Shown piece after piece: positions 5,877-26,805 of a stretch of DNA of 27,399 nt. The notes under the pieces were generated by a model. That model saw only the letters and a program-made list of their open reading frames with translations. It searched no databases and was not told the DNA's origin. This DNA comes from a virus. Positions within the stretch are counted from its first letter, which is position 1, and every line of letters starts with the position of its first letter. The stretch spans positions 1 through 27,399 of the IMG/VR virus record IMGVR_UViG_3300033145_000880; one strand, written 5' to 3'. The position numbers were made by a program, and so were the translations under genes.

Positions 5877-6143
5877 TTACAACCCCCTATCCTTTATTAT
5901 AATACCTATTGCTTCTATCGGTTGCACGCCACGCTGTCTTAAATGGTTAAACCTTCTCACTGAGTCCTGGTCATAAATACACTCTGGGAACGGGCAGCCA
6001 TCCCCATCTGATGTCTCGACACAGAAGTTAAAGCCCATCATTCTGGAGAATATACAGCCCTGGGGTAATTCCTGGTGGTAGCCCCCCATTCTCTGCGGGT
6101 TTTTCCTGCCGTCTATTTCTTTTGTGCATACGCCCCTAGACAT
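5877..6143 (-). CDS. Cysteine-rich hypothetical protein
   Basis: An AAAGGGGGGAG site precedes the ATG. The 88-aa product has scattered cysteines (C6, C30, C41, then CPFPEC around residue 50-55), which may hold a metal or iron-sulfur site. Its C-terminal part (QDSVRRFNHLRQRGVQPIEA) resembles the short helical end of small transcription regulators. The CPFPxC pattern followed by helices occurs in uncharacterised phage proteins. It is the first gene after the promoter at 6233-6261. Confidence 0.6.
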   Translation of the reverse strand: MSRGVCTKEIDGRKNPQRMGGYHQELPQGCIFSRMMGFNFCVETSDGDGCPFPECIYDQDSVRRFNHLRQRGVQPIEAIGIIIKDRGL

Positions 6144-6220
6144 TGTCTCCCCCCTTTATAGTTTGCTAACTTAGTGCTAATACCATCATAGCTGGGCGGG
6201 TGGGACAAGATATTAACTGT

Positions 6221-6249
6221 GATAGGCTGTGAATTATACCGCCTTGCTA
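6221..6249. repeat. 29-bp inverted repeat, left arm
   Basis: This copy (minus-strand reading TAGCAAGGCGGTATAATTCA...) is the inverse of 6693-6721, with 27 of 29 bases matching. The two copies flank the 6258-6671 gene. This arm contains the -10 of a leftward promoter. Confidence 0.85.
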
Positions 6250-6261
6250 GTGCTGTGTTAC
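6233..6261 (-). promoter_or_regulatory. Probable promoter GTAACA-17-TATAAT (leftward)
   Basis: A consensus TATAAT (minus strand, 6238-6233) is 17 bases from GTAACA (6261-6256), a 4/6 match to -35. The -10 lies inside the left inverted-repeat arm. It would start transcription about 80 bases before the Cys-rich gene. Confidence 0.55.
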
Positions 6262-6671
6262 CTTGCCTTTTCTAGTTCGTCTTGTAGTGCCCCGGCCCCG
6301 TCAAACCAATCTAATATTTCTGCCAGGAGTTCATAGGCTTTGCCCTTTAGGATTATCTTTGCTCCGTCAAACCAATTCAAAAACCAATACTCAATCCTGG
6401 TTGGTTTCCTCCACTCATCAACATAAAATCTAAACTCATCACTTGGCCCGCCCCAAGATAACTGGTAGCGGAAGTAGCCACGCCTTTGGTTGGTGAATGT
6501 ATGAGGTGCAACATAATCAAAGCTCAGCCCGTATTCTGGGAATGTGCCAATGTCTTCGCTGTATCGCTCCTCATCGCCTTCCTGATAAGCTCTAAAAAGT
6601 TTCTCCAAGTCCTCAATTCTACCTCTCAGAGCTTCGTTTATCCTTGCTTTACAGTTTGGTTGAGTAGCCAT
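6258..6671 (-). CDS. Hypothetical phage protein flanked by inverted repeats
   Basis: I chose ATG 6671, which follows GATGGGGGTCAA; a longer GTG-initiated frame to 6713 enters the right repeat arm and lacks a ribosome site. The 137-aa product has a helical N-terminus (LRGRIEDLEKLFRAYQEGDE), a beta-rich middle with aromatic residues (GYFRYQLSWGGPSDEFRFYV, IEYWFLNWFDGAKI) and a helical end with a second WFDGA. Such proteins recur in uncultured phage genomes without known function. It is the first gene of the main leftward transcript, a position usual for early regulators or host-takeover proteins. Confidence 0.6.
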   Translation of the reverse strand: MATQPNCKARINEALRGRIEDLEKLFRAYQEGDEERYSEDIGTFPEYGLSFDYVAPHTFTNQRRGYFRYQLSWGGPSDEFRFYVDEWRKPTRIEYWFLNWFDGAKIILKGKAYELLAEILDWFDGAGALQDELEKAR

Positions 6672-6692
6672 ATTTGACCCCCATCTTTTATT

Positions 6693-6721
6693 TAGCAAGG
6701 CGGTATAACTCACAGTCTATC
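6693..6721. repeat. 29-bp inverted repeat, right arm
   Basis: Partner of 6221-6249 with two transitions. It lies in the predicted 5' leader of the leftward early transcript, so one RNA carries both arms and could close a long stem around the whole first gene. The plus strand reads outward as TAGCAAGGCGGTATAACTCA, a weakened copy of the promoter in the other arm. Confidence 0.85.
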
Positions 6722-6793
6722 TATTATTTACCCTACTCTGGGGGCATCCCATCCCCATTTCGTTTGTTAAGGTGCTATAAACTTGATATACAC

Positions 6794-6822
6794 ATAATAG
6801 AGGAATAAGCACACGATGTCAA
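6794..6822 (-). promoter_or_regulatory. Main leftward promoter TTGACA-17-TATTAT
   Basis: Minus-strand TTGACA (6822-6817) and TATTAT (6799-6794) are separated by exactly 17 bases. Predicted start about 6787. This is the best candidate for the promoter of the whole leftward arm and gives a leader of about 115 bases before the first start codon. Confidence 0.85.
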
Positions 6823-6878
6823 CGCCCACATCACATAGAAAAGAAGAGCATAACAGAGTATGGGCGAGCTTCCACCAA

Positions 6879-6903
6879 TAACAGGTGCGTCTCAGCGCTG
6901 TTA
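6879..6903. promoter_or_regulatory. Dyad TAACAG-N13-CTGTTA between divergent promoters
   Basis: A perfect 6+6 bp inverted repeat spans 25 bases and lies between the leftward and rightward promoters. That is where a phage repressor operator would be expected. No repressor gene was recognised in the window, so this is only a candidate. Confidence 0.35.
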
Positions 6904-6922
6904 AACAGATGTGTTGCGATAG

Positions 6923-6951
6923 TTGTTTTCACTGCCACATTATGTTATAAT
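6923..6951 (+). promoter_or_regulatory. Main rightward promoter, extended -10 (TTGTTT-17-TGTTATAAT)
   Basis: TATAAT at 6946-6951 carries the extended TG element just upstream and is 17 bases from TTGTTT. Predicted start is about 6956-6958, only 3-5 bases before the ATG at 6961, so the first message would be almost leaderless. Confidence 0.75.
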
Positions 6952-6960
6952 ATAGGTAGT

Positions 6961-7215
6961 ATGGAGTATCCCGGTATATTGTATGATTTGGCATATAAGA
7001 GGAGCGAGCTGGCGGAGATATGGCGGGGGTTGAACTCTCGGTCTGCGGTAAACTTTGAGAATAACAAAAAGCTCACCCTTGCCGACAAAGTATGGTATGG
7101 CAAGTATCGTGTTGCCGACATACCACGCCTGTTATCCGAGACAGAAGAACTAGCCAAGGAGACTAAAAGACAGATAGGTGGCAACAAAGCACACACAAGG
7201 GATTCTAAGCGATAA
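6961..7215 (+). CDS. First rightward gene, small helical protein, leaderless
   Basis: The 84-aa product begins MEYPGILYDLAYKRSELAEI and is predicted mostly helical, with charged segments (SETEELAKETKRQIGG) and a basic tail. No family was recognised. No ribosome site can fit between the predicted transcription start and the ATG, so translation is likely leaderless. As the first rightward product it may be a regulator of the switch or of late genes. Confidence 0.6.
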   Translation: MEYPGILYDLAYKRSELAEIWRGLNSRSAVNFENNKKLTLADKVWYGKYRVADIPRLLSETEELAKETKRQIGGNKAHTRDSKR

Positions 7216-8635: not shown

Positions 8636-10040
8636 GAAGTGGCTGTCGTGGCCGTATCTTTTCGACATTTTAGAGATTTTAGGGAAGAAGACAGAATCGG
8701 GACAGCCATTATATAAAGAAATCGTTATTCTAAAGGCACGCCAGTTGGGAATCTCGTGGCTGGTTGCCGCCTATGCGTTGCAGAAGGTGCTTTTCAATGA
8801 TTCGGCACGTTGTCTTTTGCTGTCTCAGTCCGAACCTGATGCGTGGCGATTGCTTGAGAAGGCAACATTCGTCTTGCGCAATCTCCCTGAGTTCTTGCAG
8901 TATCCAACTGCCCATGATGCACGTGGTGAGCTAAATTTCAAGTGCAACAGCAGCGTTATTCAGGCCCTTCCATCCACAGATAGGGCTGGCCGTGGCATAG
9001 ATGCAACCCTCGTTATACGGGATGAGCTGGCAGAGCATGAATACGGGGAACAAAACTTCCGTGCTATTGGCCCCGCAGTTGATTCAGGTGGACAGTTAGT
9101 AGATTTGGGCACAATCAATAAGTTTGACGACAAAAACCATTTAACGGAACGGGTTAACAAGTTAAGGGATGGGGCGCAAAGGGAAGATTTGCCATCGGGT
9201 CTGGTTGTTTTCAAAAAAGAGAGAAGTATCTTAATCTTTGCCGGTTGGGATTTACGCCCTATCAGGGAAGAGGGGGAAACAATTGAATCATGGTTTGAGA
9301 GCAATGTCAAGGCGAAATATGACTCTGTTACAATAGAGCAGGAATACCCACGGACTATTGAGGAGGCATTATCGGCGCCGAAAACATCATGTAGATTTGA
9401 TGTTGCCTCGTTAAACAGAATGGCCAGTCAGGCAATATCCCCGATGGAGATACGGCAGAACGGTCTGGTGAAGATATACAGAAGGATGGTTGCGGGCAGG
9501 CGGGCGTGCTTTGCGATTGATTGCTCGGAGGGGGAATACGACCCCTCCGCAGGCGTAATTGTTGATGCGCAGACACTTGAGGAGCTTGTCTCCTTTCACG
9601 GTAAGATAACTATTGATGAGCAGGCTTATATAATAAGCGATTTATATGACGAATACAAAAAGCCTTTGATAGCAGTTGAGCGGAATGCGGCAGGGCTGAC
9701 GCTGATTAGCAAGCTGCTGGATATGGGGATAACGAACTGGTATTATGACGCAAAGGACAAACCAGGCTGGTATACATCGGGAGGAAGGGGAGGTGGCGGT
9801 AACAGGGGCAAAATGCTTGCAGCACTGGCCGATAGCATCTTTACTGGAGAAGCGAGGATATATAACCCCGAAGCAATAGATGAGTTCAGAACGTTTATCA
9901 GGACACCTGAACGGCAGGATGGAGTAGCTCGTGGTGGGTGCCATGATGACTTCGTGCTGGCATGGGCAATTGCCAATCAGATACGGAAGAATGTTCATGT
10001 CGGTGTCAGTCGGGGCTTTTCTTTTAAGTATAAAGAATGA
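8508..10040 (+). CDS. terL: Terminase large subunit (TerL): ATPase and nuclease
   Basis: This 510-aa protein is the DNA-packaging motor and headful/site nuclease. The N-terminal ATPase has the phage-type Walker A ARQLGISW (residues 77-84) and a Walker B-like LVIRDELAEHE (168-177). A motif QALPSTDRAGRGID (152-165) precedes it. The C-terminal RNase H-like nuclease shows D338 in CFAIDCSEGEYD, E391 in LIAVERNAAG and D480/D481 in GGCHDDFVLAWA, the expected acidic triad order. Length is normal for the family. It works with TerS and docks on the portal encoded downstream. It ends in an ATGA overlap with the phosphoesterase. Confidence 0.93.
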   Translation: MAQKSDTESFLNLDEEWRACKEHPDYFLARHVWIQNRNTAKTEKWLSWPYLFDILEILGKKTESGQPLYKEIVILKARQLGISWLVAAYALQKVLFNDSARCLLLSQSEPDAWRLLEKATFVLRNLPEFLQYPTAHDARGELNFKCNSSVIQALPSTDRAGRGIDATLVIRDELAEHEYGEQNFRAIGPAVDSGGQLVDLGTINKFDDKNHLTERVNKLRDGAQREDLPSGLVVFKKERSILIFAGWDLRPIREEGETIESWFESNVKAKYDSVTIEQEYPRTIEEALSAPKTSCRFDVASLNRMASQAISPMEIRQNGLVKIYRRMVAGRRACFAIDCSEGEYDPSAGVIVDAQTLEELVSFHGKITIDEQAYIISDLYDEYKKPLIAVERNAAGLTLISKLLDMGITNWYYDAKDKPGWYTSGGRGGGGNRGKMLAALADSIFTGEARIYNPEAIDEFRTFIRTPERQDGVARGGCHDDFVLAWAIANQIRKNVHVGVSRGFSFKYKE

Positions 10041-10543
10041 GGGTATTAGCTTACTCGGACACACACTTCGGTTTAGACGAAACATTACTAGAATTGGGGC
10101 TGAGCCCTAATTGGGATTATTCTCAGAAGTTAATTTCTGCAATAGAGTTGGCAAAACCCAATCTAGTGATTTGCTGTGGTGATTTTTCCGAAATCTACTA
10201 TGATGATGAGGATATTTTGGCGAGGCGGTTTAGTGAAATGGCTAAACTTAGGAGCATCACGGATATATTCCTTGCGGGAAATCACGACCCTGTTGGCAAA
10301 CTCGACTATTATCAGGATAATGTGAGGTATATGCACGGACATAAGTTGGGGAACGAACATAAGTTGGGGTGGGATTATATAGAGGGATTACACCTAAAGG
10401 CCGAGCAGGAACCAGCAATGATAGTGATGGGACACACACACAAGCCTATGCAGGGGGGGGCATTTATGGATATTGGGAGCGTAACACTATGTGGAACATA
10501 TGGGTTAATAGACAATGGTGCCCCCCACTTGTGTTATTTATAG
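10037..10543 (+). CDS. Calcineurin-like metallophosphoesterase
   Basis: All family motifs are present in this 168-aa protein: DTH with D8 and H10, GDFSE (48-52), GNHD (81-84) and GHTH (132-135), so two metal ions can be bound. Such enzymes cut phosphodiester or phosphomonoester bonds in nucleotides, RNA ends or DNA. Small phage members resemble the YfcE/Mre11-like fold without the cap domain. It overlaps terL by ATGA and precedes the portal, so it is co-expressed with the packaging machine; it might process DNA ends or act on nucleotides during late infection. The substrate is not readable. Confidence 0.85.
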   Translation: MRVLAYSDTHFGLDETLLELGLSPNWDYSQKLISAIELAKPNLVICCGDFSEIYYDDEDILARRFSEMAKLRSITDIFLAGNHDPVGKLDYYQDNVRYMHGHKLGNEHKLGWDYIEGLHLKAEQEPAMIVMGHTHKPMQGGAFMDIGSVTLCGTYGLIDNGAPHLCYL

Positions 10544-13617: not shown

Positions 13618-16600
13618 ATGCCGATATTCGTTCCTAAAAGACTCACATTACAACAGAAGCTCGAAGCTGAAAAACAGAGAATAGCAAACATTACCGAGAG
13701 CGCCATCAAGCAGGAGGCTGTGTTTACGCCACCTCCGACATCTCCACCGCCCCTATATATAGATGCTGTTTCCGACTACCCACAGCGCAGAGAGCCTGTA
13801 GTAAGCTATGTCCCGCCACCCCCCGTTCTTTCTAGTGTAGCAACGGCGGAAACTCCGCAAATAACAGAGGCAACGGTTGAGGAGCCTGATAAGGTTGTTG
13901 AGTGGTATGAGCAGCCCAAACGGCTTGCGGAACAGGCTATGGGTGCTATTGGAGAGGGCATTTCTAAAGTCCCCGTATTGCCCGATATACTGGAGTGGGC
14001 TGCGCCAGCATTTGAGTTTATCCATGAAAAGCTAGAGAAGCCGTTTGCTGCTATTATCACCTCCCCATTCTCGCCCAATTTGCCGTGGAGACAGGGTGAG
14101 AGTTGGTTGGAGCACGAAAAGCGGGAATACAACACATGGAAAGCGCCCACATACGTTAAGGGTGTGGCTGAGTTTGCCATGCCGTTATGGTGGTTGCCGT
14201 ATTTAGGCTGGGCAACCAGAGGCGCTAAGGCTCTCGGAATTACAAACAAAATGTCAAGGGCTTTGTCTACGCTCCCCAGGGTAGGCAAGGTCAGCCTCCC
14301 ATCAGATGAGATACTTAATAATGCCCTGTTCAAGCAGGATTTCTTTAAGCGGGTATCGATGTGGGCGGAGGATAAACCCGTATTATCTGATATAGTTAGG
14401 GCTATAGGTGGGCCATCCGCTTTTGTTAGCGGTGTGGCTCAAGACCCACTGGCAATTACAAAAAGAGCCCTTGTTAAGATGGGCGTTATTAAGGATATGC
14501 GCCACGGCGTCAGGGGGCTGCTTGTTCCCAAATTACAAAGACTGGGAGACGCCAGGAAGATATTGCGGATTAGTGATGAGGGGTTGGTTGGGGCGGTTAC
14601 ACCGAAGATTGGTAACAATTTAGGGGTCGGGCTATCGGAGGTATTTGAGAACCCAGCAATGTATAAATTTGCCACTAAGGAGGCACGCCAGTTTGTTGAG
14701 GAAACCCGCAAGGTTCTCAGGGAAATTTATGAGCTTGCAGCCGAGGAAGGCGTTAAGGTTCCCAAAGAATTAGTATTTCACAGGTTGGTTGAGGGAAAGG
14801 CCAAGGTTCTAGAAGGCGGGTTAAAGGGGCAGTTTGAGGCAAGTGATTGGGGGTCGCTATTTGAGGCTGGGAGACACTATAAAACGATGACCGAGGGAAT
14901 ACAGGCTGGTGTTAAATACGGCAATGACCCCATCAAAACCGTCAATGCTACAATAGACCATTATATCAAAAAGATAGCGACAAAGCGATTTGACGATGAG
15001 GTAGGCAAACTTGGGAAAACCCCGATGGAAAAGTTCGCCACACAATTCCCCGATGAGGCTGAGCGAATATCTACGCTAATGGCGCAGATAAATGCTGGGA
15101 AGCACGCCCTTCAGGCAATTAAAAGGATAAAATCGTTCAGGGGTGCTTCTATTCCAGGCGCTACACTTGCTAAAATTAGAAATGTATTTCCAGATGTTGC
15201 GGCAAAGTTAGATGATGTTTTCGCCTTTGCCCCACAACAGGTTGATGATATTATAAGCGCAATGGGTCGGGAAGTATTCAGAGCGACAAGGATAAAACCC
15301 CAAGATTTCAAGGTGCTATTAGCCCAGTATAACAAAACGCCTGGGCGCATCCTGGCCAGTGAGATAGACAGCGCAATCAGGCAGCTAAATATCACCAGTG
15401 GAGCAGCGACTAAAACTATCGAAAAGATATATAAGCTGGCCTATCGTAATAACAGGCAGCGAATCAGTGATGCAATCAATGCGATAGATGGAGATATGGA
15501 GAGGGTTCTTAGTGGTGCTATGGCTGAGTTGAAGCCATTAAGGAAAATGCGTAGCGATTTCACCAGGCCATACCGTGAGGGCAGACCGCTTGGCGAGTTT
15601 GAGGCAGCGGTTTATAGGCACCCTGCATTCAGGGGTAGGTTTTTTGATAAAGATGTTGCCCGCACGATAGACCAAGCCCTCGGTGCCAAGGGGCAGGATT
15701 TCCTACGAAAACTGGGGGCTGTCAGTGGTTCATCAAGAATGTTAACTGCCGCTATGGATTTCTCCGCCCCGTTTATTCAGGGTTTGGCGGTATTGGGAAG
15801 AGACCCAATAGCGTGGATTAAAGGCGTTGGCAGGCAGTTTGAATTTTTTGTCGCCCCCAAGAGGCTATATCAGTATATGACCAGCCCAGATGTCATGGCT
15901 ATTGCAACTGAGCGGGTATCCTATGGTGGCGCACGGTCTGCCTTTGAGTTCTTTGATATGTTGCAGGCAGTTGAAAAGGGGTTGGGCAAAGTCCCCGCAG
16001 TCGGGAAAGGGCTAAGGAAAGTTGCGGAGCAAACTTATGGGCGGGCTGAGGCTGCATTTACAGGGTTTGGCGAGGTTGCCAGAAATGAAATGTGGAAAGC
16101 GTTGAAACGCCCAGGCATGGCGGAGGCAGAATTGAGAGAGCTGGCACGCTCAATTGATAGAATGACGGGGGTGATGTCAACAGAAGCTCTCGCTCTTGGT
16201 AGAACGCAGCAGGAGTTTGAGCAAGCGTTTATGTTCTTTGCCCCAAGGTATACCAGGGCTTCGCTATCCTTTGTTGCAGATATGCTCAAGGGGGGCATGA
16301 CAGGAGCTAACGCCAGAAAGTCTCTCGGCTCGCTTATGGCCGCAGGTATGGCAACCTATTACGGCGCCTGCAAAGCGCTTGGGCAACAGCCGTATCTTGA
16401 CCCCCGCTCTTCTAAGTTCATGACAATTAAGGTGGGGGATAGTAGGGTTGGTATAGGCGGTATCTTATATGGGCTGATGAGAATGGGGGCGAATGTCATT
16501 GCCACAGCAAGAGAAGAGCCTATGGATTTAATTGCATTCAGCCGCTCCGATAACCCGTTTATTAAATTTATGTATCAGAGAACTTCCCCGCTGACAGGGT

Positions 16601-17589
16601 TGCTTACGGGGGTGGCGATTGAGCGGAAGAATTATTTTGGAGAGCCGTTTGAAAGCCCTGCCGACTGGGGAAGGTTTTTGGCTGGCAAGGTATTACCGAT
16701 TGCCGTTCAGTCCCAGGTATTGGAAGACCAGTCTCATCCGTTGGTATTTGCTGCCGAGTTTCTCGGTGGGAGAACTTTCCCGAAATCAACATGGGAACTA
16801 AGAGACGAGACCAGAGAGCGATTGGCACAAGAGCAGTTCGGGGTATCTTATGAGAATCTTTCCAAGCTGGATAAGAGAAAGATAGATAAATCCCCCGATG
16901 TTACCATATACCAGGAAGAGCTAGATACAGCCACGGTTCATCGTGGGGATGCACTGGATATTGCATTTATGCAACGCAGGAGAGAGTTTGAGGATGCCCG
17001 CCTCATGTATGAACAGGATGTATGGCAGGCACAAAGGGCTGTAGACGCAGGTGTGATTTCAACTTATGAGTTCAGGGAAAGGCTACAGGATGCCAACTAT
17101 GGACTCGGTGCAACCTATGAGCACATAAACTCCAACCCACAGTATGCCGAAGTTCTTGAAAAGATGGCAGAACCCCGTGATATGAGTAAGGAGTATATCG
17201 GCGATGTTGCATACGATGAGATGATGGGGCTGTTATACTCTAAGCCGCTAGAAGATGAGTTCGGCGCATTTCAATATGAAAGATATAATGAGATACGGGA
17301 TAATATAAGAAAGAAATATGGCGAGAATGTATGGCAGTATATTCTAGAGAGGGAGGCGCAGAAACGGGAAGACCTGCCGCCGCTGGCGATAGAATACTTT
17401 AGGGCTAGAGATATTCTAAAGCCCTACTGGCAGGTTAAGGACTGGGCATTAAAGCATTATGGTGCGCCGCAGACAGAATGGCAGAAAAGAAGGCTGGAGG
17501 AAATGATACAAAAGATAAGAAGGCGGCTACGGGCCAATAACCCAGAGATAGAAAAATATTATCAGATGTTCTATGTCAGACCGCAATAG
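13618..17589 (+). CDS. Very large virion protein, polyvalent/ejection-protein-like (1323 aa)
   Basis: This is the largest protein in the window. Pro-rich N-terminus (residues about 35-80), a hydrophobic stretch about 178-205 (GVAEFAMPLWWLPYLGWATR), long helical middle, a conserved-looking block about 855-1010 (FEQAFMFFAPRYTRASLSFV, GIGGILYGLMRMGANVIA), then PFESPADWGRFLAGKVLP and a highly charged helical C-terminus. The FFAPRYTRASL-type block occurs in large polyvalent-protein-associated (LPD) domains of phage proteins injected with DNA. A virion internal or ejection role fits its size and place between portal and scaffold. No catalytic motif was recognised. The function is inference. Confidence 0.55.
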   Translation: MPIFVPKRLTLQQKLEAEKQRIANITESAIKQEAVFTPPPTSPPPLYIDAVSDYPQRREPVVSYVPPPPVLSSVATAETPQITEATVEEPDKVVEWYEQPKRLAEQAMGAIGEGISKVPVLPDILEWAAPAFEFIHEKLEKPFAAIITSPFSPNLPWRQGESWLEHEKREYNTWKAPTYVKGVAEFAMPLWWLPYLGWATRGAKALGITNKMSRALSTLPRVGKVSLPSDEILNNALFKQDFFKRVSMWAEDKPVLSDIVRAIGGPSAFVSGVAQDPLAITKRALVKMGVIKDMRHGVRGLLVPKLQRLGDARKILRISDEGLVGAVTPKIGNNLGVGLSEVFENPAMYKFATKEARQFVEETRKVLREIYELAAEEGVKVPKELVFHRLVEGKAKVLEGGLKGQFEASDWGSLFEAGRHYKTMTEGIQAGVKYGNDPIKTVNATIDHYIKKIATKRFDDEVGKLGKTPMEKFATQFPDEAERISTLMAQINAGKHALQAIKRIKSFRGASIPGATLAKIRNVFPDVAAKLDDVFAFAPQQVDDIISAMGREVFRATRIKPQDFKVLLAQYNKTPGRILASEIDSAIRQLNITSGAATKTIEKIYKLAYRNNRQRISDAINAIDGDMERVLSGAMAELKPLRKMRSDFTRPYREGRPLGEFEAAVYRHPAFRGRFFDKDVARTIDQALGAKGQDFLRKLGAVSGSSRMLTAAMDFSAPFIQGLAVLGRDPIAWIKGVGRQFEFFVAPKRLYQYMTSPDVMAIATERVSYGGARSAFEFFDMLQAVEKGLGKVPAVGKGLRKVAEQTYGRAEAAFTGFGEVARNEMWKALKRPGMAEAELRELARSIDRMTGVMSTEALALGRTQQEFEQAFMFFAPRYTRASLSFVADMLKGGMTGANARKSLGSLMAAGMATYYGACKALGQQPYLDPRSSKFMTIKVGDSRVGIGGILYGLMRMGANVIATAREEPMDLIAFSRSDNPFIKFMYQRTSPLTGLLTGVAIERKNYFGEPFESPADWGRFLAGKVLPIAVQSQVLEDQSHPLVFAAEFLGGRTFPKSTWELRDETRERLAQEQFGVSYENLSKLDKRKIDKSPDVTIYQEELDTATVHRGDALDIAFMQRRREFEDARLMYEQDVWQAQRAVDAGVISTYEFRERLQDANYGLGATYEHINSNPQYAEVLEKMAEPRDMSKEYIGDVAYDEMMGLLYSKPLEDEFGAFQYERYNEIRDNIRKKYGENVWQYILEREAQKREDLPPLAIEYFRARDILKPYWQVKDWALKHYGAPQTEWQKRRLEEMIQKIRRRLRANNPEIEKYYQMFYVRPQ

Positions 17590-18494: not shown

Positions 18495-19382
18495 ATGGCA
18501 ATTCAAACAGCAACAACTGGGAATTTAGAGGATGCCCAGAGAATAATCATAAGTGCTGTGCGATACACTGGCGAAGCCGAAGCCCCGTGTTCCAATCTAA
18601 TTGAAAAGTTCATACTGCCGCAAGGTGCGAAGTCAATGACCGTGCCAAAGGTTGGGCAGTATACAGCCCAAAGCCTCACTGACGGTGTAGACCTGACTGA
18701 CGGAGAGGATATCGGAATGACCTCTGTATCCCTCACCCCTTCTGAGGTCGGGCTTAAAGTTATCGTTACCGACAAGATGGTGCGGCAAATGGTGCCGCAG
18801 GTTTTCGCAATGGTTGGCCGACAGGCTGGCGACGCTATGGCTAGAAAGCGAGACGAAGATGTTATCGCCCTGTTCTCCGCCTTAAATGGCGGAACGGCAT
18901 TGGGCGCTGACAATAAGTATCTCTCCCTTCAGAACGCCTCGGCTTGCGTTGCTACCGCTACGGGCAACTATGGTGGGGAACCACTACCACGGCCAGTATC
19001 CGCAGTGCATCACCCGAATGCTATCGCTTACTTGGCGAGAGATGCTGCTGCTATCGGCGCAACTTACTATGCCGGTATCTTGGGTGACCTGTCCGAAGAG
19101 TTGTTACGCAACTTCTGGAAAATCCAGATAGATGGTGTTAATTTCTTCCAGGACGGCAATATTAGCAAGATTACAAGCGCAGATAGTGCTTATGGCGCAA
19201 TCTTCTCCAAGTCGGCAATGTGTATCGTGGAATCATTGGCACCCACAACCGAACGAGAGCGGGACGCTTCACTCAGGGCGACTGAAATTGTTGTGGTATC
19301 AGACTACGGTGCGTTCGAGCTTGATGATGGTTATGGTTTTCCGATGCGCTACGAGATTGGTAATCTTACTACTAGCAACTAA
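18495..19382 (+). CDS. Major capsid protein (HK97-fold type, predicted)
   Basis: The start follows AAGGAGACAAA. The 295-aa product is a normal size for a coat protein and shows features of the N4-gp56/P22-like capsid group: an N-terminal helix then LPQGAKSMTVPKVGQYTAQS, a VSLTPSEVGLKVIVTDKMVR strand-helix, an ARKRDEDVIALFSALNGGT spine helix, and a C-terminal ERDASLRATEIVVVSDYGAF leading to MRYEIGNLTTS. It follows the scaffold and precedes a decoration-like protein. The high-copy shell protein is expected to be expressed from the strong promoter at 17590. Confidence 0.8.
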   Translation: MAIQTATTGNLEDAQRIIISAVRYTGEAEAPCSNLIEKFILPQGAKSMTVPKVGQYTAQSLTDGVDLTDGEDIGMTSVSLTPSEVGLKVIVTDKMVRQMVPQVFAMVGRQAGDAMARKRDEDVIALFSALNGGTALGADNKYLSLQNASACVATATGNYGGEPLPRPVSAVHHPNAIAYLARDAAAIGATYYAGILGDLSEELLRNFWKIQIDGVNFFQDGNISKITSADSAYGAIFSKSAMCIVESLAPTTERERDASLRATEIVVVSDYGAFELDDGYGFPMRYEIGNLTTSN

Positions 19383-19394
19383 TAGGAGGCGGTT

Positions 19395-19688
19395 GTGAAC
19401 AAAGAGCAAATAAAGGCATTAAAGGAAGCTGGGATAGGGTGGGAGATGCTCAAGCAGGGGCTGGCGATACAACCAAAGGCGACATACTATAAGCCTGACG
19501 GCACCGAACTCCCCAACTTACCAGCAGACCCCTACTCTCTCAAGCGATACATAGCACGAGGGTTCTTGCTCCAAAAGCCCGAAATTGCTCAAGTCTCCCC
19601 AGACGAGCACAAATGTGAGACTTGTGGCAAGGTCTGTAAAACCAAGCTCGGTTTATCTGGGCATATGAGGTCTCACGCTAAAAACTAA
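19395..19688 (+). CDS. C2H2 zinc-finger protein next to capsid gene
   Basis: The frame starts with GTG (19395) after TAGGAGGCGGT. The 97-aa product has an N-terminal helical part (MNKEQIKALKEAGIGWEMLK) and a beta-rich middle with PNLPADPYSLKRYIARGFLL. The C-terminal tail is a textbook C2H2 finger: C74, C77, H90 and H94, with spacing C-x2-C-x12-H-x3-H. Such fingers are uncommon in bacterial phages. Placement between capsid and decoration genes suggests a capsid-associated or host-DNA-binding structural role; function is unproven. Confidence 0.75.
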   Translation: MNKEQIKALKEAGIGWEMLKQGLAIQPKATYYKPDGTELPNLPADPYSLKRYIARGFLLQKPEIAQVSPDEHKCETCGKVCKTKLGLSGHMRSHAKN

Positions 19689-19706: not shown

Positions 19707-20468
19707 ATGGGTTTTCCTGGTTCTGTTCTATTAAACCAGGGGGATATCTACAAGGAAACATCTGATAAGAGGCATCCGCTGGGAACACGTGGCTACACAA
19801 GAGACGGTAGGGTATTCCGCTATTCGCAATGTAGTGGCACTGCAATCACCTCTGCGGGGAACTTGATTCAGGCTGCGCCCCCACCCGATTCGGGCAACTG
19901 GTCTTATGACCTGGCGGTTGACGCTGAGGTGACAACTGATTCTACCTCGGTGTTAATCACTGCGACTACGGCTTGCGCTACGGCCAATTACTTTGCCGAC
20001 GGCTATCTGTTTGTTAGTGACGCCTGTGGCATAGGTCAGATGGTGCAGGTTAAGTCCCACGCTGCGATGACGAGTGGCGCTACTGCACAGACAATTAAGC
20101 TGCGAGATGAGGATAAGTTCCATCAGGCGCTTACGACCGCATCTAAGGTTGGCTTAATTGAAAATCCCTATCAGAATGTTATCATCAAACCCGCTACCCT
20201 GATTACCGCACCTCTGATAGGGGTCAACCCGATACCCGTTACAGCCAATTATTACTTCTGGCTGCAAACTTGGGGACCTGCCCCTGTGCTGCAAACGGCG
20301 GCTTTTGACATTAACCTCCCCGTTGTTGGCGACTCTGCTACTGCTGGGGCTGCGCAAAAGCTGTCTTCTGATGCGGAGGTGCAAGACCAGTTTGTTGTCG
20401 GGCAGGTATTGTCCGTTGCTTCTGGGTCAGGGGATTGTGGGTTGGTAGTCATCAACTTTGCCCCGTAA
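19707..20468 (+). CDS. Probable head decoration or capsid-associated structural protein
   Basis: GTAGGAGGATTTAAT precedes the ATG. The 253-aa product starts MGFPGSVLLNQGDIYKETSD and contains HPLGTRGYTRDGRVFRYSQC, a pattern I know from conserved structural proteins encoded after capsid genes in marine and other phages. The rest is Ala/Thr/Val-rich beta sandwich-like sequence (VTTDSTSVLITATT, then DAEVQDQFVVGQVLSVAS). It likely binds the outer capsid surface. A long GC-rich hairpin follows its stop. Confidence 0.65.
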   Translation: MGFPGSVLLNQGDIYKETSDKRHPLGTRGYTRDGRVFRYSQCSGTAITSAGNLIQAAPPPDSGNWSYDLAVDAEVTTDSTSVLITATTACATANYFADGYLFVSDACGIGQMVQVKSHAAMTSGATAQTIKLRDEDKFHQALTTASKVGLIENPYQNVIIKPATLITAPLIGVNPIPVTANYYFWLQTWGPAPVLQTAAFDINLPVVGDSATAGAAQKLSSDAEVQDQFVVGQVLSVASGSGDCGLVVINFAP

Positions 20469-20532: not shown

Positions 20533-20955
20533 ATGAAGCAAACCGAACTTTTCAAAGAGGGATTCCACCCAACCTCAAGATGGTTACATTGGCGCCCGCC
20601 TCAATTTGATAAAGATGGATGGACAGAGTGGGGCTGGCGCTGCCTTCAATCTGAAAACCTTAGCATGGGCAAGCACACAGATATAGGTTGCTTCACTATG
20701 CTTGAGGCTAAGTATGGCATTGAAATCCAGGATAATGTTCAAATTGGCTCTCACTGCACCATTTATTCGTGGTCAACCATTGACAATAAAAAGGGCAAAG
20801 TAGTAATTAAGGAGGGGGCTTGCATAGGCACCCACAGCGTTGTTATGCCTGGTGTTACCATAGGCAAGGGCGCTTTGGTGGGTGCTTTTTCCTTTGTCAA
20901 TCGTGATATTCCTGACAATGCGAGGGCAATGGGCATCCCCGCAAAAGTGCGATGA
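20533..20955 (+). CDS. Hexapeptide-repeat (left-handed beta-helix) acyltransferase
   Basis: I start at ATG 20533, preceded by GCTGGAGGAATA; a longer frame overlaps the hairpin. The 140-aa product shows repeated [IV]G-xx-[CSA] coils: GKHTDIGCF, IQIGSHCTI-type turns, VVIKEGACIGTHSVVMPGVT and IGKGALVGAFSFV, then MGIPAKVR, the usual end of sugar acetyltransferases. It transfers an acyl group, usually from acetyl-CoA, to a sugar hydroxyl or amine. As first gene of the nonulosonate operon it may act as the acetylation step (the LegH/NeuD role) or modify the finished sugar. Which one cannot be told. Confidence 0.85.
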   Translation: MKQTELFKEGFHPTSRWLHWRPPQFDKDGWTEWGWRCLQSENLSMGKHTDIGCFTMLEAKYGIEIQDNVQIGSHCTIYSWSTIDNKKGKVVIKEGACIGTHSVVMPGVTIGKGALVGAFSFVNRDIPDNARAMGIPAKVR

Positions 20956-21626
20956 AAACAATCACCATTTTGGGCACGGGCCCCAGTTTTATACATTGTT
21001 CCTTTGGCGAAGACTGCGGGGAAGTATGGGGTAACAACGGAACCTATACTGCTGCTCGGCTGCCCCACCTCAAGGATAAGTTTCGCCTCGACAAACTCTT
21101 CATTACCGACCAATTATTCCGCCCAGACGGCACATTCTGCTTTGATTTAGATGCCATAAATGGGTTAAAGGAGATATACAAAACCGAGATTTATTCTGCC
21201 CATAAGTTGAAGCTAGGAAGCATTGAGCTGCAAAGCCACCCCTTTCCCACCAGGGGAATTATGAAGAAGATGGGTTCTAGGTTTCTAAACAGCACCATTG
21301 ACTGGATGCTTGCTTATGCTCTTTATAAGCACACAAGACTTACCAAGAATAAATATGGCATTTCTATACTCGAATTAACTACACCCCTAACCCTTAAACT
21401 CTATGGCATAGATATGGCGACACAATATGAAAAGGATACCAATCAGAGAGGAGGGGTAGAGCATTGGCTGGGCTATGCCCGAGGGCTGGGCTGCGAGGTA
21501 TATGTCTGTGAGCATTCGGTGTTACTGCGAACTGCCACAGGGTTGCCATATGGTCAAAAACTAAACATAAATCTACGTAATGTAGACCCGTTTAATTTGC
21601 TCAAAAGGAGAAGGAATGGAAGGTAA
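20952..21626 (+). CDS. Maf/DUF115-like Rossmann protein, possible glycosyltransferase
   Basis: It overlaps the acyltransferase by ATGA. The 224-aa protein begins MKTITILGTGPSFIHCSFGE, a Rossmann opening with GTGPS, then EVWGNNG, a LDKLFITDQLF strand, FLNSTIDWMLAYALY, LKLYGIDM and QRGGVEHWLGYARGLGCEV. This order matches a widespread phage family related to DUF115 (MAF_flag10). Flagellin Maf proteins transfer pseudaminic or legionaminic acid to protein, so a transferase for the sugar made by the next genes is an attractive inference. However, similar proteins occur in phages without such genes. Confidence 0.55.
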   Translation: MKTITILGTGPSFIHCSFGEDCGEVWGNNGTYTAARLPHLKDKFRLDKLFITDQLFRPDGTFCFDLDAINGLKEIYKTEIYSAHKLKLGSIELQSHPFPTRGIMKKMGSRFLNSTIDWMLAYALYKHTRLTKNKYGISILELTTPLTLKLYGIDMATQYEKDTNQRGGVEHWLGYARGLGCEVYVCEHSVLLRTATGLPYGQKLNINLRNVDPFNLLKRRRNGR

Positions 21627-22365
21627 GTTACCAGAATCAATCGGAACATACTCAGAGAGAAAATACATAGGTCTTACTGAAAGAGTCAAGGGATTACCTG
21701 TATGTTTCATCCCCGCCAAGAGCGAGTCAGCGGGGTTGCCCCAAAAGAATAAACTAAAGATAGACGGGAAGCCGTTATATCAATATCCCATAGAGGCGGC
21801 TAAGGAAAGTGGAATCTTCGGTCATATCTGGGTTTGTTCGGATGATGAGGAAATATTGGAAGCGGCTTATCGCCAGAGGGTTTACCCCTACAAGGAACCC
21901 CCAGGTTTGGTTACGGGGAATATCAAGGAACTAATTATGTTTTGCTTGCGCTTGATGGCCCGGCCCCTACCCGAAGAAATCGCAGTGTTACTACCATCAA
22001 GCCCCTTCCAGACGGCGGAACACATCAGGAGCGCATATAGCCTGTTCAAGCGAGAAAACGCCCATTCACTAGTTAGTGTAACCCCCTGTTGGTATCCACC
22101 CCAATGGGCACTAGAGAAGCGAGGGCACTTTATCCGCCCATTCTATGGCGAGCAAGCGATTGAATGGAATAGACCGAAACGCAGTTTGTATTGGCCGACA
22201 GGAGCCATATTTATGGCCAAGGCGAAGGCTTATATCGGGAATGAACTGGGATTTTATGGGAGGCGCACAGTCCCCTATATTATGGAGAGGTCATTTGATA
22301 TACACACCAAAGAGGACTTTGCCTACGCTGAGTTTTTGATGCAGAGGGGTAAAGATGGGGGATAA
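21616..22365 (+). CDS. CMP-nonulosonate cytidylyltransferase (NeuA/PseF/LegF family)
   Basis: The 249-aa enzyme activates a 9-carbon acid sugar with CTP to give CMP-sugar and pyrophosphate. Motifs: FIPAKSESAGLPQKNKLKID (31-50, nucleotide-binding, a variant of IPARxGSKxxxxKN), GKPLYQYPIEAA, WVCSDDEEI (72-80), LLPSSPFQTAEHI (125-137), YWPTGAIF and DIHTKEDFAYAEF near the end. A short N-terminal extension (about 27 aa) precedes the first strand. AAAAGGAGAAGGA lies before the start, and the gene overlaps both neighbours by 11 bases. The exact sugar (Neu5Ac, Pse or Leg type) cannot be read from this gene alone. Confidence 0.85.
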   Translation: MEGKLPESIGTYSERKYIGLTERVKGLPVCFIPAKSESAGLPQKNKLKIDGKPLYQYPIEAAKESGIFGHIWVCSDDEEILEAAYRQRVYPYKEPPGLVTGNIKELIMFCLRLMARPLPEEIAVLLPSSPFQTAEHIRSAYSLFKRENAHSLVSVTPCWYPPQWALEKRGHFIRPFYGEQAIEWNRPKRSLYWPTGAIFMAKAKAYIGNELGFYGRRTVPYIMERSFDIHTKEDFAYAEFLMQRGKDGG

Positions 22366-23191
22366 AATTATCTTAATCACGGGGGGCAGCGGTTCTCTGG
22401 GGCAAGCCATTGCCAGGAATGCTCTATCAAGAGATGATGTTAGGGCGGTAAAGATATTTTCTAACGATGAAAACCAGCAGGTAGAAATGGAGCGTGCCTT
22501 TCCAGATGCGCCCCGTTTGCGTTTCCTGATTGGTGATGTGAGAGATAAGGAGAGGCTTCGCAGGGCAATGCATAAGGTGGATTTCGTTATCCACGCAGCC
22601 GCACTAAAACACGTATCGGTTTGTGAATTTAACCCCATAGAGGCAGTTCGGACAAACGTTAATGGGTCAGTAAATGTAATTGACGCTGCTATTGATGCGG
22701 GGGTAGGCAAAGTCTTGGCCGTAAGCAGTGATAAGGCAGTTCACCCCATCAATATATATGGGGCAACCAAACTGGTCATGGAAAAACTATTCACCCAGGC
22801 TAATGTCTACGGCAAGGGAAAATTTAGTTGTGTTAGGTTCGGCAACTTTGGGGGAAGGGGGAGTGTCGTCCCCCTGATAATAAAGCAATCAGAGACTGGG
22901 AGGGTAACAATCACCGACAGAGATATGGTGAGGTTTTGGATAGACATTAAGGCAGCTGCACAATTCACTCTGGATTGTATGGACTATATGAATGGTGGGG
23001 AGATATTCATTCCCAAGATGTCGGAGGAAGGTATGATGGATATTGTCAGGAGAATGGCTCCAGAGGCTGAGATTGAATTTATAGGCCGCAGAAAGGGGGA
23101 GAAACTTTCAGAACAATTATTTAACGAAGATGAGCGTCCAGACGATAAGGGAAATTATTACATTGTAAGGAGTGGAAATGATAATCGCTGA
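22355..23191 (+). CDS. pseB: UDP-GlcNAc 4,6-dehydratase, PseB/CapD-like
   Basis: The 278-aa SDR enzyme has the NAD(P)-binding TGGSGSLG (9-16), AAALKHVSVCEFNPIEA (81-97), SSDKAVHP (124-131) and the YGATK catalytic pair Y135/K139. RFGNFGGRGSVVP, TITDRDMVRFWI and GGEIFIPKM follow, typical of PseB and capsular dehydratases, then RRKGEKLSEQL near the C-terminus. It converts UDP-GlcNAc to a 4-keto-6-deoxy sugar, the first step to pseudaminic acid. The length is somewhat shorter than PseB (about 330 aa), lost mainly after residue 265. Cytoplasmic. Other CapD-type dehydratases remain possible. Confidence 0.85.
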   Translation: MGDKIILITGGSGSLGQAIARNALSRDDVRAVKIFSNDENQQVEMERAFPDAPRLRFLIGDVRDKERLRRAMHKVDFVIHAAALKHVSVCEFNPIEAVRTNVNGSVNVIDAAIDAGVGKVLAVSSDKAVHPINIYGATKLVMEKLFTQANVYGKGKFSCVRFGNFGGRGSVVPLIIKQSETGRVTITDRDMVRFWIDIKAAAQFTLDCMDYMNGGEIFIPKMSEEGMMDIVRRMAPEAEIEFIGRRKGEKLSEQLFNEDERPDDKGNYYIVRSGNDNR

Positions 23192-23855
23192 GTGCGGTAT
23201 AAATTGGAAGGGGGGCTTAGAGATTGCAGAACGCCTAATTAGGGAAGCCTCAAAAAACGGTGCGGATTTGGCTAAGTTCCAGCTTTATGAAACTGAGGCA
23301 ATTCACCCTGTTGGTTCTCAATACTATAACATCAGCAAGAAGCACGAACTAACTTTCGAACAGGCGAAGTGGTTATTCAATTTAGGAAAACAGAATGGTA
23401 TTGAGGTATTCTTCTCGGTATTTGATACTGAGAGAGTGGATTGGTGCAGGAAGATTGGTGTAGGGATATATAAGGTGGCTTACAGCCAAAGGCAAAATGT
23501 TGAGCTAATTAACTATATAATCGCACACGCTGGTGGGGCAGGTATCTTTATCTCCACCGATAGCCCCATACACCCAAATTGGGACGCCCGTTACCTATAC
23601 TGTGTTCCCCAATATCCCGCCAAGTTAACGGATATATCATTCGAGCATCTGGGTTCCTATGCGGGGTTTTCTGACCACACCATTGGCTTAGATGCAAGTA
23701 AGATAGCACTAGCTCGAGGGGCTAAAATTATAGAAAAACATTTTTGCCTGTCAAGAGAGGGGCAAGATGACAACCCCGATATTATGGGTAGTATGACCCC
23801 CCCTGAATTAAGGGAGTTAAAGGAATGGGAGGGGCGGGTGAGTTTAGTTGCATAG
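23178..23855 (+). CDS. NeuB/PseI-like nonulosonic acid synthase, no SAF domain
   Basis: The ATG at 23178 has GTAAGGAG five bases before it; an upstream GTG is less likely. The 225-aa barrel shows IIAECGINWKGG (2-13), ADLAKFQLYE (29-38), YKVAYSQRQN (98-107), LYCVPQYPAKL (140-150), GFSDHTIG (163-170) and IIEKHF (184-189), the PEP and metal-binding signature of NeuB. It condenses PEP with a 6-carbon amino sugar into a 9-carbon acid. Family members are about 340-350 aa and end in an antifreeze-like SAF domain that contributes to the active site of the partner. Here it is missing, so activity is uncertain. Confidence 0.8.
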   Translation: MIIAECGINWKGGLEIAERLIREASKNGADLAKFQLYETEAIHPVGSQYYNISKKHELTFEQAKWLFNLGKQNGIEVFFSVFDTERVDWCRKIGVGIYKVAYSQRQNVELINYIIAHAGGAGIFISTDSPIHPNWDARYLYCVPQYPAKLTDISFEHLGSYAGFSDHTIGLDASKIALARGAKIIEKHFCLSREGQDDNPDIMGSMTPPELRELKEWEGRVSLVA

Positions 23856-23859
23856 AGGA

Positions 23860-24927
23860 ATGGAAGAACATCCTAAAGTAAAGCAGGTTTTAGATTCTGG
23901 TATTTTTTCGGGATTCGGAGCTACTCTTGAAAAACACCTCGGGGGGGTTATGGTAAGAGAGCTAGAGGATGCCTTCTGCTCTTATTTTGATGTTGGGTAT
24001 GCCGTGAGCATGAGTTCGGGGACTGCCTGTTTGCACGCCGCCCTAATTGCGTGCGGTGTTCAGTGTGGGGACGAGGTAATAGTGCCAGCAATGAGTTTTA
24101 GCTCATCGGCGTCATGTGTTTTGATGGCTGGGGCAAGGCCCATCTTTGCCGACATAGACGAAGATACATTCAATCTTGACGTTTGGGCTGTAGACCCGTC
24201 AACCCAAACGAAGGCCATTATTCCAGTTCATCTGCACGGTTTGCCTGCCAATATGCACGACATTATGTTCACTGCAAAATCATTGGGGATTAGGGTTATT
24301 GAAGATGCCTCTCAGGCCATCGGCGCAAAATATAACGGGAAATATGTGGGCACGATAGGCGATTGCGGAGTTTTTTCCTTTAACCAAAACAAGCCGCTCT
24401 TTGCGGGAAGTGGGGGGATGCTCATAACCAACGACAGGGAGATAGCGGAAAAGGCCAGGCTTATTAGAAATCACGGCGAGACACAATCTGATATTCTGGG
24501 ATACAACTACAGGTTGGGTGAAATTGAAGCCGCCCTCATACTGGAACAATTACCCCAACTAGAGCAGATAAACAAAGGCAGAATTGAACTAGCCAATTAT
24601 TTGACAGAAAGTCTATCGGGTATAGAGGAAATTATACCACCAGTTGCCGAGGGTAATATCTTTTTCAGGTATGCCATGAAATACAGGGGCAGCGTGCATC
24701 GCAATAGATTCCAGGAGCAGTTAATTCGGGACGGCGTTTTCTTCGGTCGCAAGGATTATGGCGAGCCTCTATATCGGCAGCCCATCTACAGGCAGTTTAA
24801 CCCCCATCCCTGCCCAGTAGCGGAGCGCCTGTGGCGGGATGAGATTATGGTTACGGAGATAATAAAACCACCCAATACGCAGAAGGATATTGATAGAGCA
24901 CTTTCAATTATACGCAAAATGTGTTAA
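23860..24927 (+). CDS. DegT/DnrJ/EryC1-family PLP sugar aminotransferase, PseC-like
   Basis: The protein is about 355 aa from ATG 23860 (a TTG at 23848 is the alternative start). Motifs: SSGTACLHAALIACGV near residue 55, GDEVIVPAMSFSSSAS, DIDEDTFNLD, the PLP-pocket IEDASQAIGAKYNGK with D149, and catalytic K178 in FSFNQNKPLFAGSGG. An NYRLGEIEAALILEQL helix follows. It transfers an amino group to a keto sugar, as PseC or LegC does after PseB. The NxK motif is slightly variant from the common SFxxxK. Its place after pseB and neuB fits the C-4 amination step. Confidence 0.85.
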   Translation: MEEHPKVKQVLDSGIFSGFGATLEKHLGGVMVRELEDAFCSYFDVGYAVSMSSGTACLHAALIACGVQCGDEVIVPAMSFSSSASCVLMAGARPIFADIDEDTFNLDVWAVDPSTQTKAIIPVHLHGLPANMHDIMFTAKSLGIRVIEDASQAIGAKYNGKYVGTIGDCGVFSFNQNKPLFAGSGGMLITNDREIAEKARLIRNHGETQSDILGYNYRLGEIEAALILEQLPQLEQINKGRIELANYLTESLSGIEEIIPPVAEGNIFFRYAMKYRGSVHRNRFQEQLIRDGVFFGRKDYGEPLYRQPIYRQFNPHPCPVAERLWRDEIMVTEIIKPPNTQKDIDRALSIIRKMC

Positions 24928-24930: not shown

Positions 24931-24952
24931 AAGAATAGGGTAGTATGATTAA

Positions 24953-24974
24953 GGGGGCGAATTGCCTCCTTTTT
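24953..24974 (+). terminator. Terminator/attenuator hairpin in tail-unit leader
   Basis: GGGGGC-GAATT-GCCTCC (with one G-U pair) is followed by five T. It lies directly before the GGGAAG ribosome site of the next gene, the same layout as at 10583 and 17626. Confidence 0.65.
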
Positions 24975-24984
24975 ATTTGGGAAG

Positions 24985-25224
24985 ATGTCAAAGATAATAG
25001 TAAAAGAAAATGGCAGAGAAAGAACCATATTCCTGCCGAATACTGGGGATAGGAGCTATGATGAGGCTTTACGAGAAGCCTACGTTGAGAAAACCAGAGA
25101 TGAACTGCGTAAGATGCCCCCAAAAGAAAAGGGCAATATGTCAAGGCAGGATATAAAGGAGTATCTAAGGGAACGCAGGGAATTTAACGAATATAAAAAG
25201 AGGGGAAGTAAAAAGTATTTTTAA
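24985..25224 (+). CDS. Small charged hypothetical protein
   Basis: The 79-aa product starts MSKIIVKENGRERTIFLPNT, then charged helices (SYDEALREAYVEKTRDELRK, RQDIKEYLRERREFNEYKKR). It is the first gene after the third promoter-hairpin leader. Short, highly charged helical proteins at this place may be tail assembly chaperones or connectors; no family was recognised. Confidence 0.6.
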   Translation: MSKIIVKENGRERTIFLPNTGDRSYDEALREAYVEKTRDELRKMPPKEKGNMSRQDIKEYLRERREFNEYKKRGSKKYF

Positions 25225-25425: not shown

Positions 25426-25477
25426 CGAAATTTTTGATGACGACAACGATGTGCTTACTGCGGAGGTGGACAGCTAA
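25391..25477 (+). CDS. 28-aa ORF duplicating the N-terminus of the fibre protein
   Basis: ATG at 25391 follows GGAGGAAAGAGGAAAG. The peptide MAEYKTLSQILNEIFDDDND, and 8 further residues, closely parallels the fibre start MAYKTVTQIFNECFDDTNNA. Stop and next start overlap as TAATG. It is either a remnant of a duplicated fibre gene or a separate short virion-anchoring peptide. Confidence 0.55.
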   Translation: MAEYKTLSQILNEIFDDDNDVLTAEVDS

Positions 25478-26805
25478 TGGCCTACAAAACAGTAACACAG
25501 ATATTTAACGAGTGCTTTGATGATACGAACAATGCGCTCAAAGTAAAGATAACGGTCAATGACGATAAACTTCTAAAGATTGGCACAGATGCTGACTCGG
25601 TCATACTTAACCGCAGCACATCCCTATCCGCCAATACCGCACTAGCCAATGTTATCGTGGGAACGCCTGACACGGAAGCCATAGTTGCCAACTCGTTAGT
25701 TATAAGTAACACCACGCAAGACGCAGATATTCATATCATAGGTAATGATGGGGGCAACTCGCAGACTTTTGTGTGGATTGATACTTCAGACTATATAGTA
25801 TACTTCCCCGAGCGTGCTAGTTTTTTAGGAGACACTTATTGGTCTACCGTCCTTCAGGCAAATCTTAATGCAGCTTCAATAAGCTCGTGGAAAAGCACAG
25901 ATGGATACACCACAATCCAGGCTTATGATACTGGTGTAGGACTTGTAGAAGTTGCCAGGTTTGCAGGTGCTGCTGACCCATACTTCTCTATGGGTGGGAG
26001 TCAAAACATACGGGGGTATAATTCGGGAAAGTTTGCTCTTGTGGAGCAAGCGGCAGCCCTAACCGATGTAGCTGGCGAGGGGCAAATTTGGGTCAAGAAC
26101 AGCACGCCCAACACCCTCTATTTCACCGATGATACAGGCGTTGATTATCCGCTTGCAGCATTTGATGTCCATAATGGGGAAATGGTTGTTACCTCCAACC
26201 AGACAGCTGTAATTGAGACTGCAAACACCCCACACGCCTTTACTGGTTTTTCTACTGGCGTAGTAAGCGACTTTACCTTTAATGCTGGCATCACGGGGGC
26301 AATAACGGCTTACGCAGACTACTCAGGCACAGTGGCAGGCACGGTTTTAGCAACTGCCGACACACACGGTTTAACCACTGGGGACATTATTACTATCAGA
26401 GGCACCACAAACTATAATGGTGTGTTTGAGGTAACAGTAGTAGACGCAAATACATTCTACTTTACAGATACCTGGGTGGCCGATGATGGCGCCAGTGACT
26501 TTGAAATGGGAGACTACTTGCTCGCTGGAACAGGAACTGCTGGGCAATATGATATAGAGTGGAATAGCTCAGTAGCGGAAGGCGGGGCGGCTGGTGGCAC
26601 AGTGACATTCCAGGTTTATATCAATACGGCTGTTCAAACCAAGGCGGGAGGTAAGAGGAAGTTTGCCAACAATGATGTTGGCTCTATATCGGGAGGCGGG
26701 CACATAACAATTGCCGAGTCTGACCGAATATGGTTCGCCCACCAGAGCGATAGCACCAACGACCTGACGGTAGGCGTGATGAACTTGAGACTGAACAGGC
26801 TCTAA
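25477..26805 (+). CDS. Probable tail fibre/receptor-binding protein
   Basis: The 442-aa product begins MAYKTVTQIFNECFDDTNNA, a short N-terminal motif likely used for virion attachment and duplicated in the ORF before it. A long Ser/Thr/Asn/Ala-rich beta region follows. Residues about 245-330 look like a C-rich-free beta sandwich (THGLTTGDIITIRGTTNYNG is a recurring phage-fibre motif), and the last 110 residues (ITIAESDRIWFAHQSDSTND) resemble a C1q/TNF-like trimeric head. A trimeric fibre that binds host surface glycans is the best reading. No enzymatic depolymerase motif was seen. Confidence 0.7.
   Translation: MAYKTVTQIFNECFDDTNNALKVKITVNDDKLLKIGTDADSVILNRSTSLSANTALANVIVGTPDTEAIVANSLVISNTTQDADIHIIGNDGGNSQTFVWIDTSDYIVYFPERASFLGDTYWSTVLQANLNAASISSWKSTDGYTTIQAYDTGVGLVEVARFAGAADPYFSMGGSQNIRGYNSGKFALVEQAAALTDVAGEGQIWVKNSTPNTLYFTDDTGVDYPLAAFDVHNGEMVVTSNQTAVIETANTPHAFTGFSTGVVSDFTFNAGITGAITAYADYSGTVAGTVLATADTHGLTTGDIITIRGTTNYNGVFEVTVVDANTFYFTDTWVADDGASDFEMGDYLLAGTGTAGQYDIEWNSSVAEGGAAGGTVTFQVYINTAVQTKAGGKRKFANNDVGSISGGGHITIAESDRIWFAHQSDSTNDLTVGVMNLRLNRL

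Follow-up and report, generated by a model that had tools for sequence, protein, structure and literature searches.

Nonulosonic acids are nine-carbon, sialic-acid-like sugars, and sialic-like sugars are a classic cell-surface disguise. The bacterial pseudaminic pathway, which is associated with flagellin glycosylation, consists of PseB, PseC, PseH, PseG, PseI and PseF. In virion glycosylation of mycobacteriophages, the phage contributes glycosyltransferases. There, glycans are reported on proteins of the capsid and the tail (Freeman et al. 2023, cited in PMC12619734). Flagellin receives nonulosonic acids on its Ser/Thr residues from Maf, whose PF01973 domain resembles Cst-II (PMC11339370). 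Legionaminic acid or SpsE-type pathways are represented, for example, by the sps genes of B. subtilis (PMC7439481). One review names pseI among phage genes, in a table footnote only (PMC6359870). We found no description of a phage-encoded nonulosonic acid cassette in a literature search whose coverage excluded most subscription papers and all bioRxiv preprints.

The window, that is, the whole stretch of 27,399 nucleotides analysed here, is a linear viral fragment from IMG/VR (IMGVR_UViG_3300033145_000880, positions 1 to 27,399) with phage terminase and capsid genes. Its head module carries a nonulosonic acid cassette that is genuine, encoded by the phage and conserved, and whose most likely role is virion glycosylation. 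The cassette (g1–g6) and its surroundings are as follows.

8508: large terminase (TerL)
18495..19382, + strand: major capsid protein, phrog_267-like (PHROGs 6.5e-11)
19395..19688, + strand: small C2H2-zinc-finger-like protein between the capsid gene and g0 (sequence)
19707..20468, + strand: g0, predicted beta-rich capsid surface or decoration protein, left border of the slot (AF2, Foldseek)
20533..20955, + strand: g1, hexapeptide (LbH) sugar acyltransferase (Pfam Hexapep 2.8e-12)
20952..21626, + strand: g2, CstII/Maf_flag10-like, proposed nonulosonic acid transferase (family profile, AF2 model)
21616..22365, + strand: g3, CMP-nonulosonic acid synthetase, PseF/NeuA-like (CTP_transf_3 4e-14)
22355..23191, + strand: g4, PseB-like UDP-GlcNAc 4,6-dehydratase, inverting type (TIGR03589 4.3e-96)
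23172..23855, + strand: g5, NeuB-fold nonulosonate synthase without SAF domain (Pfam NeuB PF03102 2.2e-31)
23848..24927, + strand: g6, PseC/LegC-like PLP aminotransferase (DegT_DnrJ_EryC1 1.1e-83)
24951..24971, + strand: terminator-like hairpin in the gap 3' of g6 (9-bp stem, then a T-rich tail)
24985..25224, + strand: p79, small charged protein of the virion region, bordering the slot on the right (homologs follow the cassette in L002 and L056)
25477..26805, + strand: p442, virion-region protein, possibly tail or fibre (weak PHROGs tail matches)

A preliminary description of this DNA had reported six tightly overlapping genes among virion genes, encoding an acyltransferase, a Maf/DUF115-like protein, a cytidylyltransferase and PseB-, NeuB- and PseC-like enzymes. 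Both the arrangement and the gene calls were upheld, the latter by profile searches. All six genes are on the + strand between 20533 and 24927, their ends matching that description exactly or to within a few codons, and neighbours overlap by 4-20 nt. Shine-Dalgarno-like sequences precede most of the starts, and the composition of the cassette is that of the flanking DNA. The start of g1 is ATG 20533, with GGAGGA before it, and a longer TTG ORF at 20458 was set aside in its favour. The start of g5 is GTG 23172 or ATG 23178, and that of g6 is TTG 23848 or ATG 23860. The hairpin 3' of g6 is not above chance, as the scan found 7 terminator-like hairpins against 9.3 expected.

The virion setting is given by TerL, the capsid gene, g0 and further head-module candidates in the right part of the window, and the genes downstream of the cassette are virion-like with weak tail matches, which the L119 homolog of p442 shows as well. 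The capsid protein is 27-32% identical to Pelagibacter phage capsid proteins and 57-73% identical to those of the closest cassette-bearing relatives. The zinc-finger-like gene between capsid and g0 is kept in L002, L003, L039, L042, L081, L119 and L202. LAGLIDADG-like ORFs, recognized by sequence motif, adjoin the capsid gene in L119 (5154-5630) and L202 (1099-1680). A 1323-aa protein encoded 5' of the capsid gene (13618-17589; 53% identical in L003) is possibly a minor head or ejection protein, and a metallophosphoesterase-like gene lies directly 3' of the terminase large subunit (10037-10543).

Like the bacterial pseudaminic pathway, the cassette contains homologs of PseB, PseC, PseI/NeuB and PseF, and its acyltransferase is a candidate for the PseH role. 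The profile searches led to nonulosonic acid families and not to unrelated sugar pathways, and the best NCBIfam model of each core enzyme is a nonulosonic pathway enzyme. g4 matches Pfam Polysacc_synt_2 (5e-82), and the PseB equivalog TIGR03589 is by far its best model, at 321.6 bits against a cut-off of 407.75. The top PDB match of g4 is 2gn4 (FlaA1, a UDP-GlcNAc C6 dehydratase; 3e-70). Alignment with FlaA1 places D126, K127 and Y135 of g4 at the Asp-Lys-Tyr set of inverting dehydratases, active-site residues of PseB with established catalytic roles. g6 keeps the PLP lysine (Lys182, numbered from TTG) and matches PseC (6.5e-63) and LegC (1.6e-62) best, both below cut-off (212.9 bits against 423.5 for the PseC equivalog). 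g5 aligns with residues 21-263 of N. meningitidis NeuB (2wqp) and ends near the equivalent of residue 263; a search across the window record found no SAF domain. g5 scores 103.4 bits against the PseI equivalog (cut-off 340.25). Its conserved catalytic set (E7, K35, Q37, K101, H169, H190 and D203) corresponds to NeuB E25, K53, Q55, K129, H215, H236 and D247, the residues that bind PEP, metal and sugar. g3 matches the NCBIfam PseF model best (2.4e-27; 96.1 bits, below the cut-off of 205.7), and its structural matches are NeuA structures, 1eyr among them. It has the motifs PAK and DIH instead of the usual PAR and DID. The possibility that g3 is a degraded enzyme was rejected, and DIH was treated as a lineage feature, because DIH recurs in viral synthetases paired with a short NeuB. 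g1 falls below the cut-off of the NeuD/PglB/VioB model TIGR03570 (8.7e-18), and its counterpart in L202 is 56% identical. The relatives L002, L003 and L119 have a PseH-like GNAT in its place, which matches PseH only weakly.

The cassette also differs from the bacterial pseudaminic pathway. It lacks PseG, its synthase lacks SAF, its acyltransferase is of the hexapeptide type, and it is phage-borne between capsid and tail genes. Because all four core enzymes (g3–g6) score under the NCBI equivalog cut-offs, the exact sugar is not established. The earlier proposal of most of a pseudaminic or legionaminic pathway holds at the level of nonulosonic families, but the scores miss the pseudaminic equivalog cut-offs. 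Judged by homology, the sugar is probably pseudaminic-like. The legionaminic acid and SpsE-type pathways share a PseC/LegC-like aminotransferase and a NeuB-family synthase with the cassette, but the active site of g4 is of the inverting PseB type and not retaining, g5 is shorter and no hydrolase was found here.

The UDP-sugar hydrolase (PseG/LegG) had been called unrecognizable from the outset, and PseG (TIGR03590) was indeed absent from the window and 19 other viral records, all fragments, in searches with working positive controls. The GT-B C-terminal domain PF04101 was likewise absent from 22 fragmentary records (the window and 21 others), again with working controls. A PseG hidden elsewhere in the window was sought with TIGR03590, PF04101 and PF02350 and rejected as there was no match. 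Since no viral record searched has a PseG-type hydrolase, the phage as sequenced encodes an incomplete pathway, lacking one recognizable step. Hydrolysis would then depend on a host enzyme of this type or on a different enzyme.

The second gene, g2, gave no family match as a single sequence. With a family profile of 32 members, its nine best PDB matches were all GT42 sialyltransferases (Campylobacter CstII/CstI), weak at E 0.007-0.2, with CstII at E 0.007. Three of the 32 members match PF01973 (MptE-like/Maf_flag10) and one matches CST-I. The initial Maf-like assignment survived testing. The AF2 model (pLDDT 90) has human ST6GALNAC2 as its top Foldseek PDB match (probability 0.97, E 0.0055, TM-score 0.40). 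Profile and fold give remote and weak, mutually agreeing signals of likeness to the GT42 sialyltransferases and the PF01973 Maf superfamily. Unlike Maf and CstII, g2 is a single-domain protein of about 225 aa encoded beside capsid and not flagellin genes, and no invariant counterpart of the catalytic His188 of CstII was evident. A possible parallel with Maf is action on surface Ser/Thr of a self-assembling protein (PMC11339370). A PF01973 search of four MAGs for Maf-type comparison sequences found none.

Relatives of g2 sit just 3' of major capsid genes in phages whose capsids are unrelated. The genes upstream of them match seven or more Pfam capsid families (Phage_capsid, SU10_MCP, Phage_capsid_4, Major_capside, P22 coat, Phage_cap_E and Mu gpT), a descriptive count as the neighbours were chosen by size and position. 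Within the window's phage family, g2 is present in 7 of the 8 lineages that have sugar genes and in none of the 12 that lack them (Fisher p about 1e-4); the lineages were dereplicated at 90% capsid identity and are related, which makes the p-value only a guide. It is quite unlikely, in our judgement, that the product of the cassette is a related amino sugar or a nonulosonic-like compound for host metabolism or another modification, with g2 being not a glycosyltransferase but, for example, an MptE-like nucleotide-binding enzyme. The scores below equivalog cut-offs, the SAF-less synthase and the lack of PseG would suit such a product, PF01973 also covers pterin diphosphokinases, and within the fetched DNA most g2 relatives have no sugar-synthesis gene near them, many occurring singly or as tandem copies. 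However, the combination of a CMP-sugar synthetase, a synthase and a sialyltransferase-like protein fits the use of a CMP-nonulosonate, and g2 tracks the sugar genes in the window's own family. Homologs of NeuB and of the CMP-synthetase are encoded on some of the contigs with capsid-adjacent g2 relatives. Groups of three to four g2-like genes, in tandem or clustered, lie directly 3' of a capsid-sized gene in L011 (8827-11271), L012 (9980-12752) and L024 (8777-10618), and no sugar-synthesis genes were found in the fetched DNA of these three contigs.

From these homologies, we infer a reaction order. g4 would dehydrate and C5-epimerise UDP-GlcNAc, g6 would add an amino group at C4, and g1 would acylate this C4 amino group. 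The hydrolase not seen in the phage would free the sugar, g5 would condense it with PEP, and g3 would make the CMP-sugar. The CstII/Maf-like g2 may then link the sugar to hydroxyl groups on a surface protein of the virion; the capsid protein or the decoration protein g0 would be the likeliest acceptor. The AF2 model of g0 (pLDDT 88) is beta-rich, and its top Foldseek matches include the phi29 head-fibre base 6qyy and capsid-associated chains of HFTV1 and Pam3, with probability 0.99-1.00 but all with E > 0.01. On this model, g0 is a reasonable but unproven candidate acceptor. What we observe is a set of genes with these homologies and intact active-site residues, which keeps to one location and recurs in relatives, and a g2 family that is associated with capsid genes. 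On balance, we consider it fairly probable that the phage makes a CMP-nonulosonic acid, which g2 transfers to a protein on the virion surface. The benefit may lie in particle charge or shielding. Unlike the mycobacteriophages, the phage would also encode most of the synthesis of its donor sugar.

The preliminary description had left three roles side by side, decoration of virions, conversion of the host surface and supply of host pathways, and the capsid association of g2 favours decoration over conversion of the host surface. We regard it as unlikely that the sugar alters a host surface glycan, blocking superinfection or changing receptors, with the virion location giving strong late expression only. 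Nonulosonic acids are common on bacterial surfaces, and some relatives have further genes of a surface-sugar type (polysaccharide pyruvyl transferase-like, methyltransferase-like and WbuX amidotransferase genes). However, no flippase, polymerase or membrane transferase is obvious in the window cassette, which is set among virion genes and would probably be expressed late, and g2 relatives adjoin capsid genes across unrelated capsid types. A search of nine cassette-bearing records, some of which are fragments, gave no tyrosine integrase, which also argues against it. If decoration of the virion is correct, phages would have, in a self-made sialic-like sugar on the particle, a new means of altering its charge, stability, adsorption or recognition.

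The same operon was sought in related phages, and both the slot and the gene set recur. In L002, L003, L119 and L202, homologs of the capsid, zinc-finger and g0 genes precede g2 and the genes for nonulosonic acid. The gene order of L202 matches that of the window from the capsid gene through g1–g5, where its contig ends. In several independent contigs the slot lies between the capsid-decoration-like g0 and the virion gene that comes next. It is occupied by truncated or variant sugar genes in L039 (g2, then the contig end), L044 (a GNAT only, then the contig end), L046, L052 and L056. In cassette-less relatives, g0 is followed directly by a small charged ORF (112-113 aa) and then a 415-420 aa protein, an empty slot. 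As the same slot is filled, varied or empty among relatives, these sequences identify the cassette as a module that can be swapped in and out at a single defined position. The nearest relative by capsid is L039 (73%) and by sugar enzymes L202, which suggests cassette exchange; L039 ends before the sugar enzymes. The contig is metagenomic and fragmentary, and host DNA beside phage DNA in a chimeric assembly had been raised as an objection. It is extremely improbable and was rejected, as the filled slot is reproduced by four independent contigs, while others have incomplete or variant sets or an empty slot. The contigs with the capsid relatives L202, L203, L204 and L205 were binned into MAGs, one of Bathyarchaeota and three of Chloroflexota, a link too weak for a host assignment, which was rejected.

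Several cassettes carry further genes. WbuX/PseA-like amidotransferase genes in L002 (7799-9870) and L119 (11521-12663) suggest, by homology, acetamidino-type sugar variants; in L002 this gene adjoins a CysH-like gene and a small membrane-protein-like ORF. Two conserved radical SAM-like genes, recognized by sequence motif, flank the CMP-synthetase in the slot of L056 (11923-14700) and L046 (8090-10957).

NeuB-like genes are present in 3 of 50,697 sequenced phage records (either of two queries), which gave no match to g2. In IMG/VR viral contigs, at least 421 stretches encode a NeuB-like gene, and 69 of 79 viral NeuB loci also have a CMP-synthetase homolog. The short NeuB recurs in other viruses, often beside a short cytidylyltransferase with the DIH motif, which places the window in a wider viral branch. 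If our reading is true, sialic-like synthesis is a little-noticed trait of uncultivated viruses, and the conserved unknown g2 family adjoining capsid genes in many such phages would be explained. We advance only tentatively, at somewhat less than even chances, the wider proposal that tailed phages with unrelated capsids coat their heads through this capsid-associated CstII/Maf-like family, some of them encoding the donor by a reduced route with a SAF-less synthase and no PseG-type hydrolase. g5 offers a natural SAF-less synthase for probing the minimal requirements of nonulosonate synthesis. L002 has a second, full-length NeuB-like gene with SAF (6006-7088), which was rejected as a true synthase because both metal-binding His motifs are lost; the intact short NeuB beside it keeps them. 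Within g5 itself, a perfect sigma-70 consensus promoter (12/12) lies antisense at 23727-23754 (- strand).
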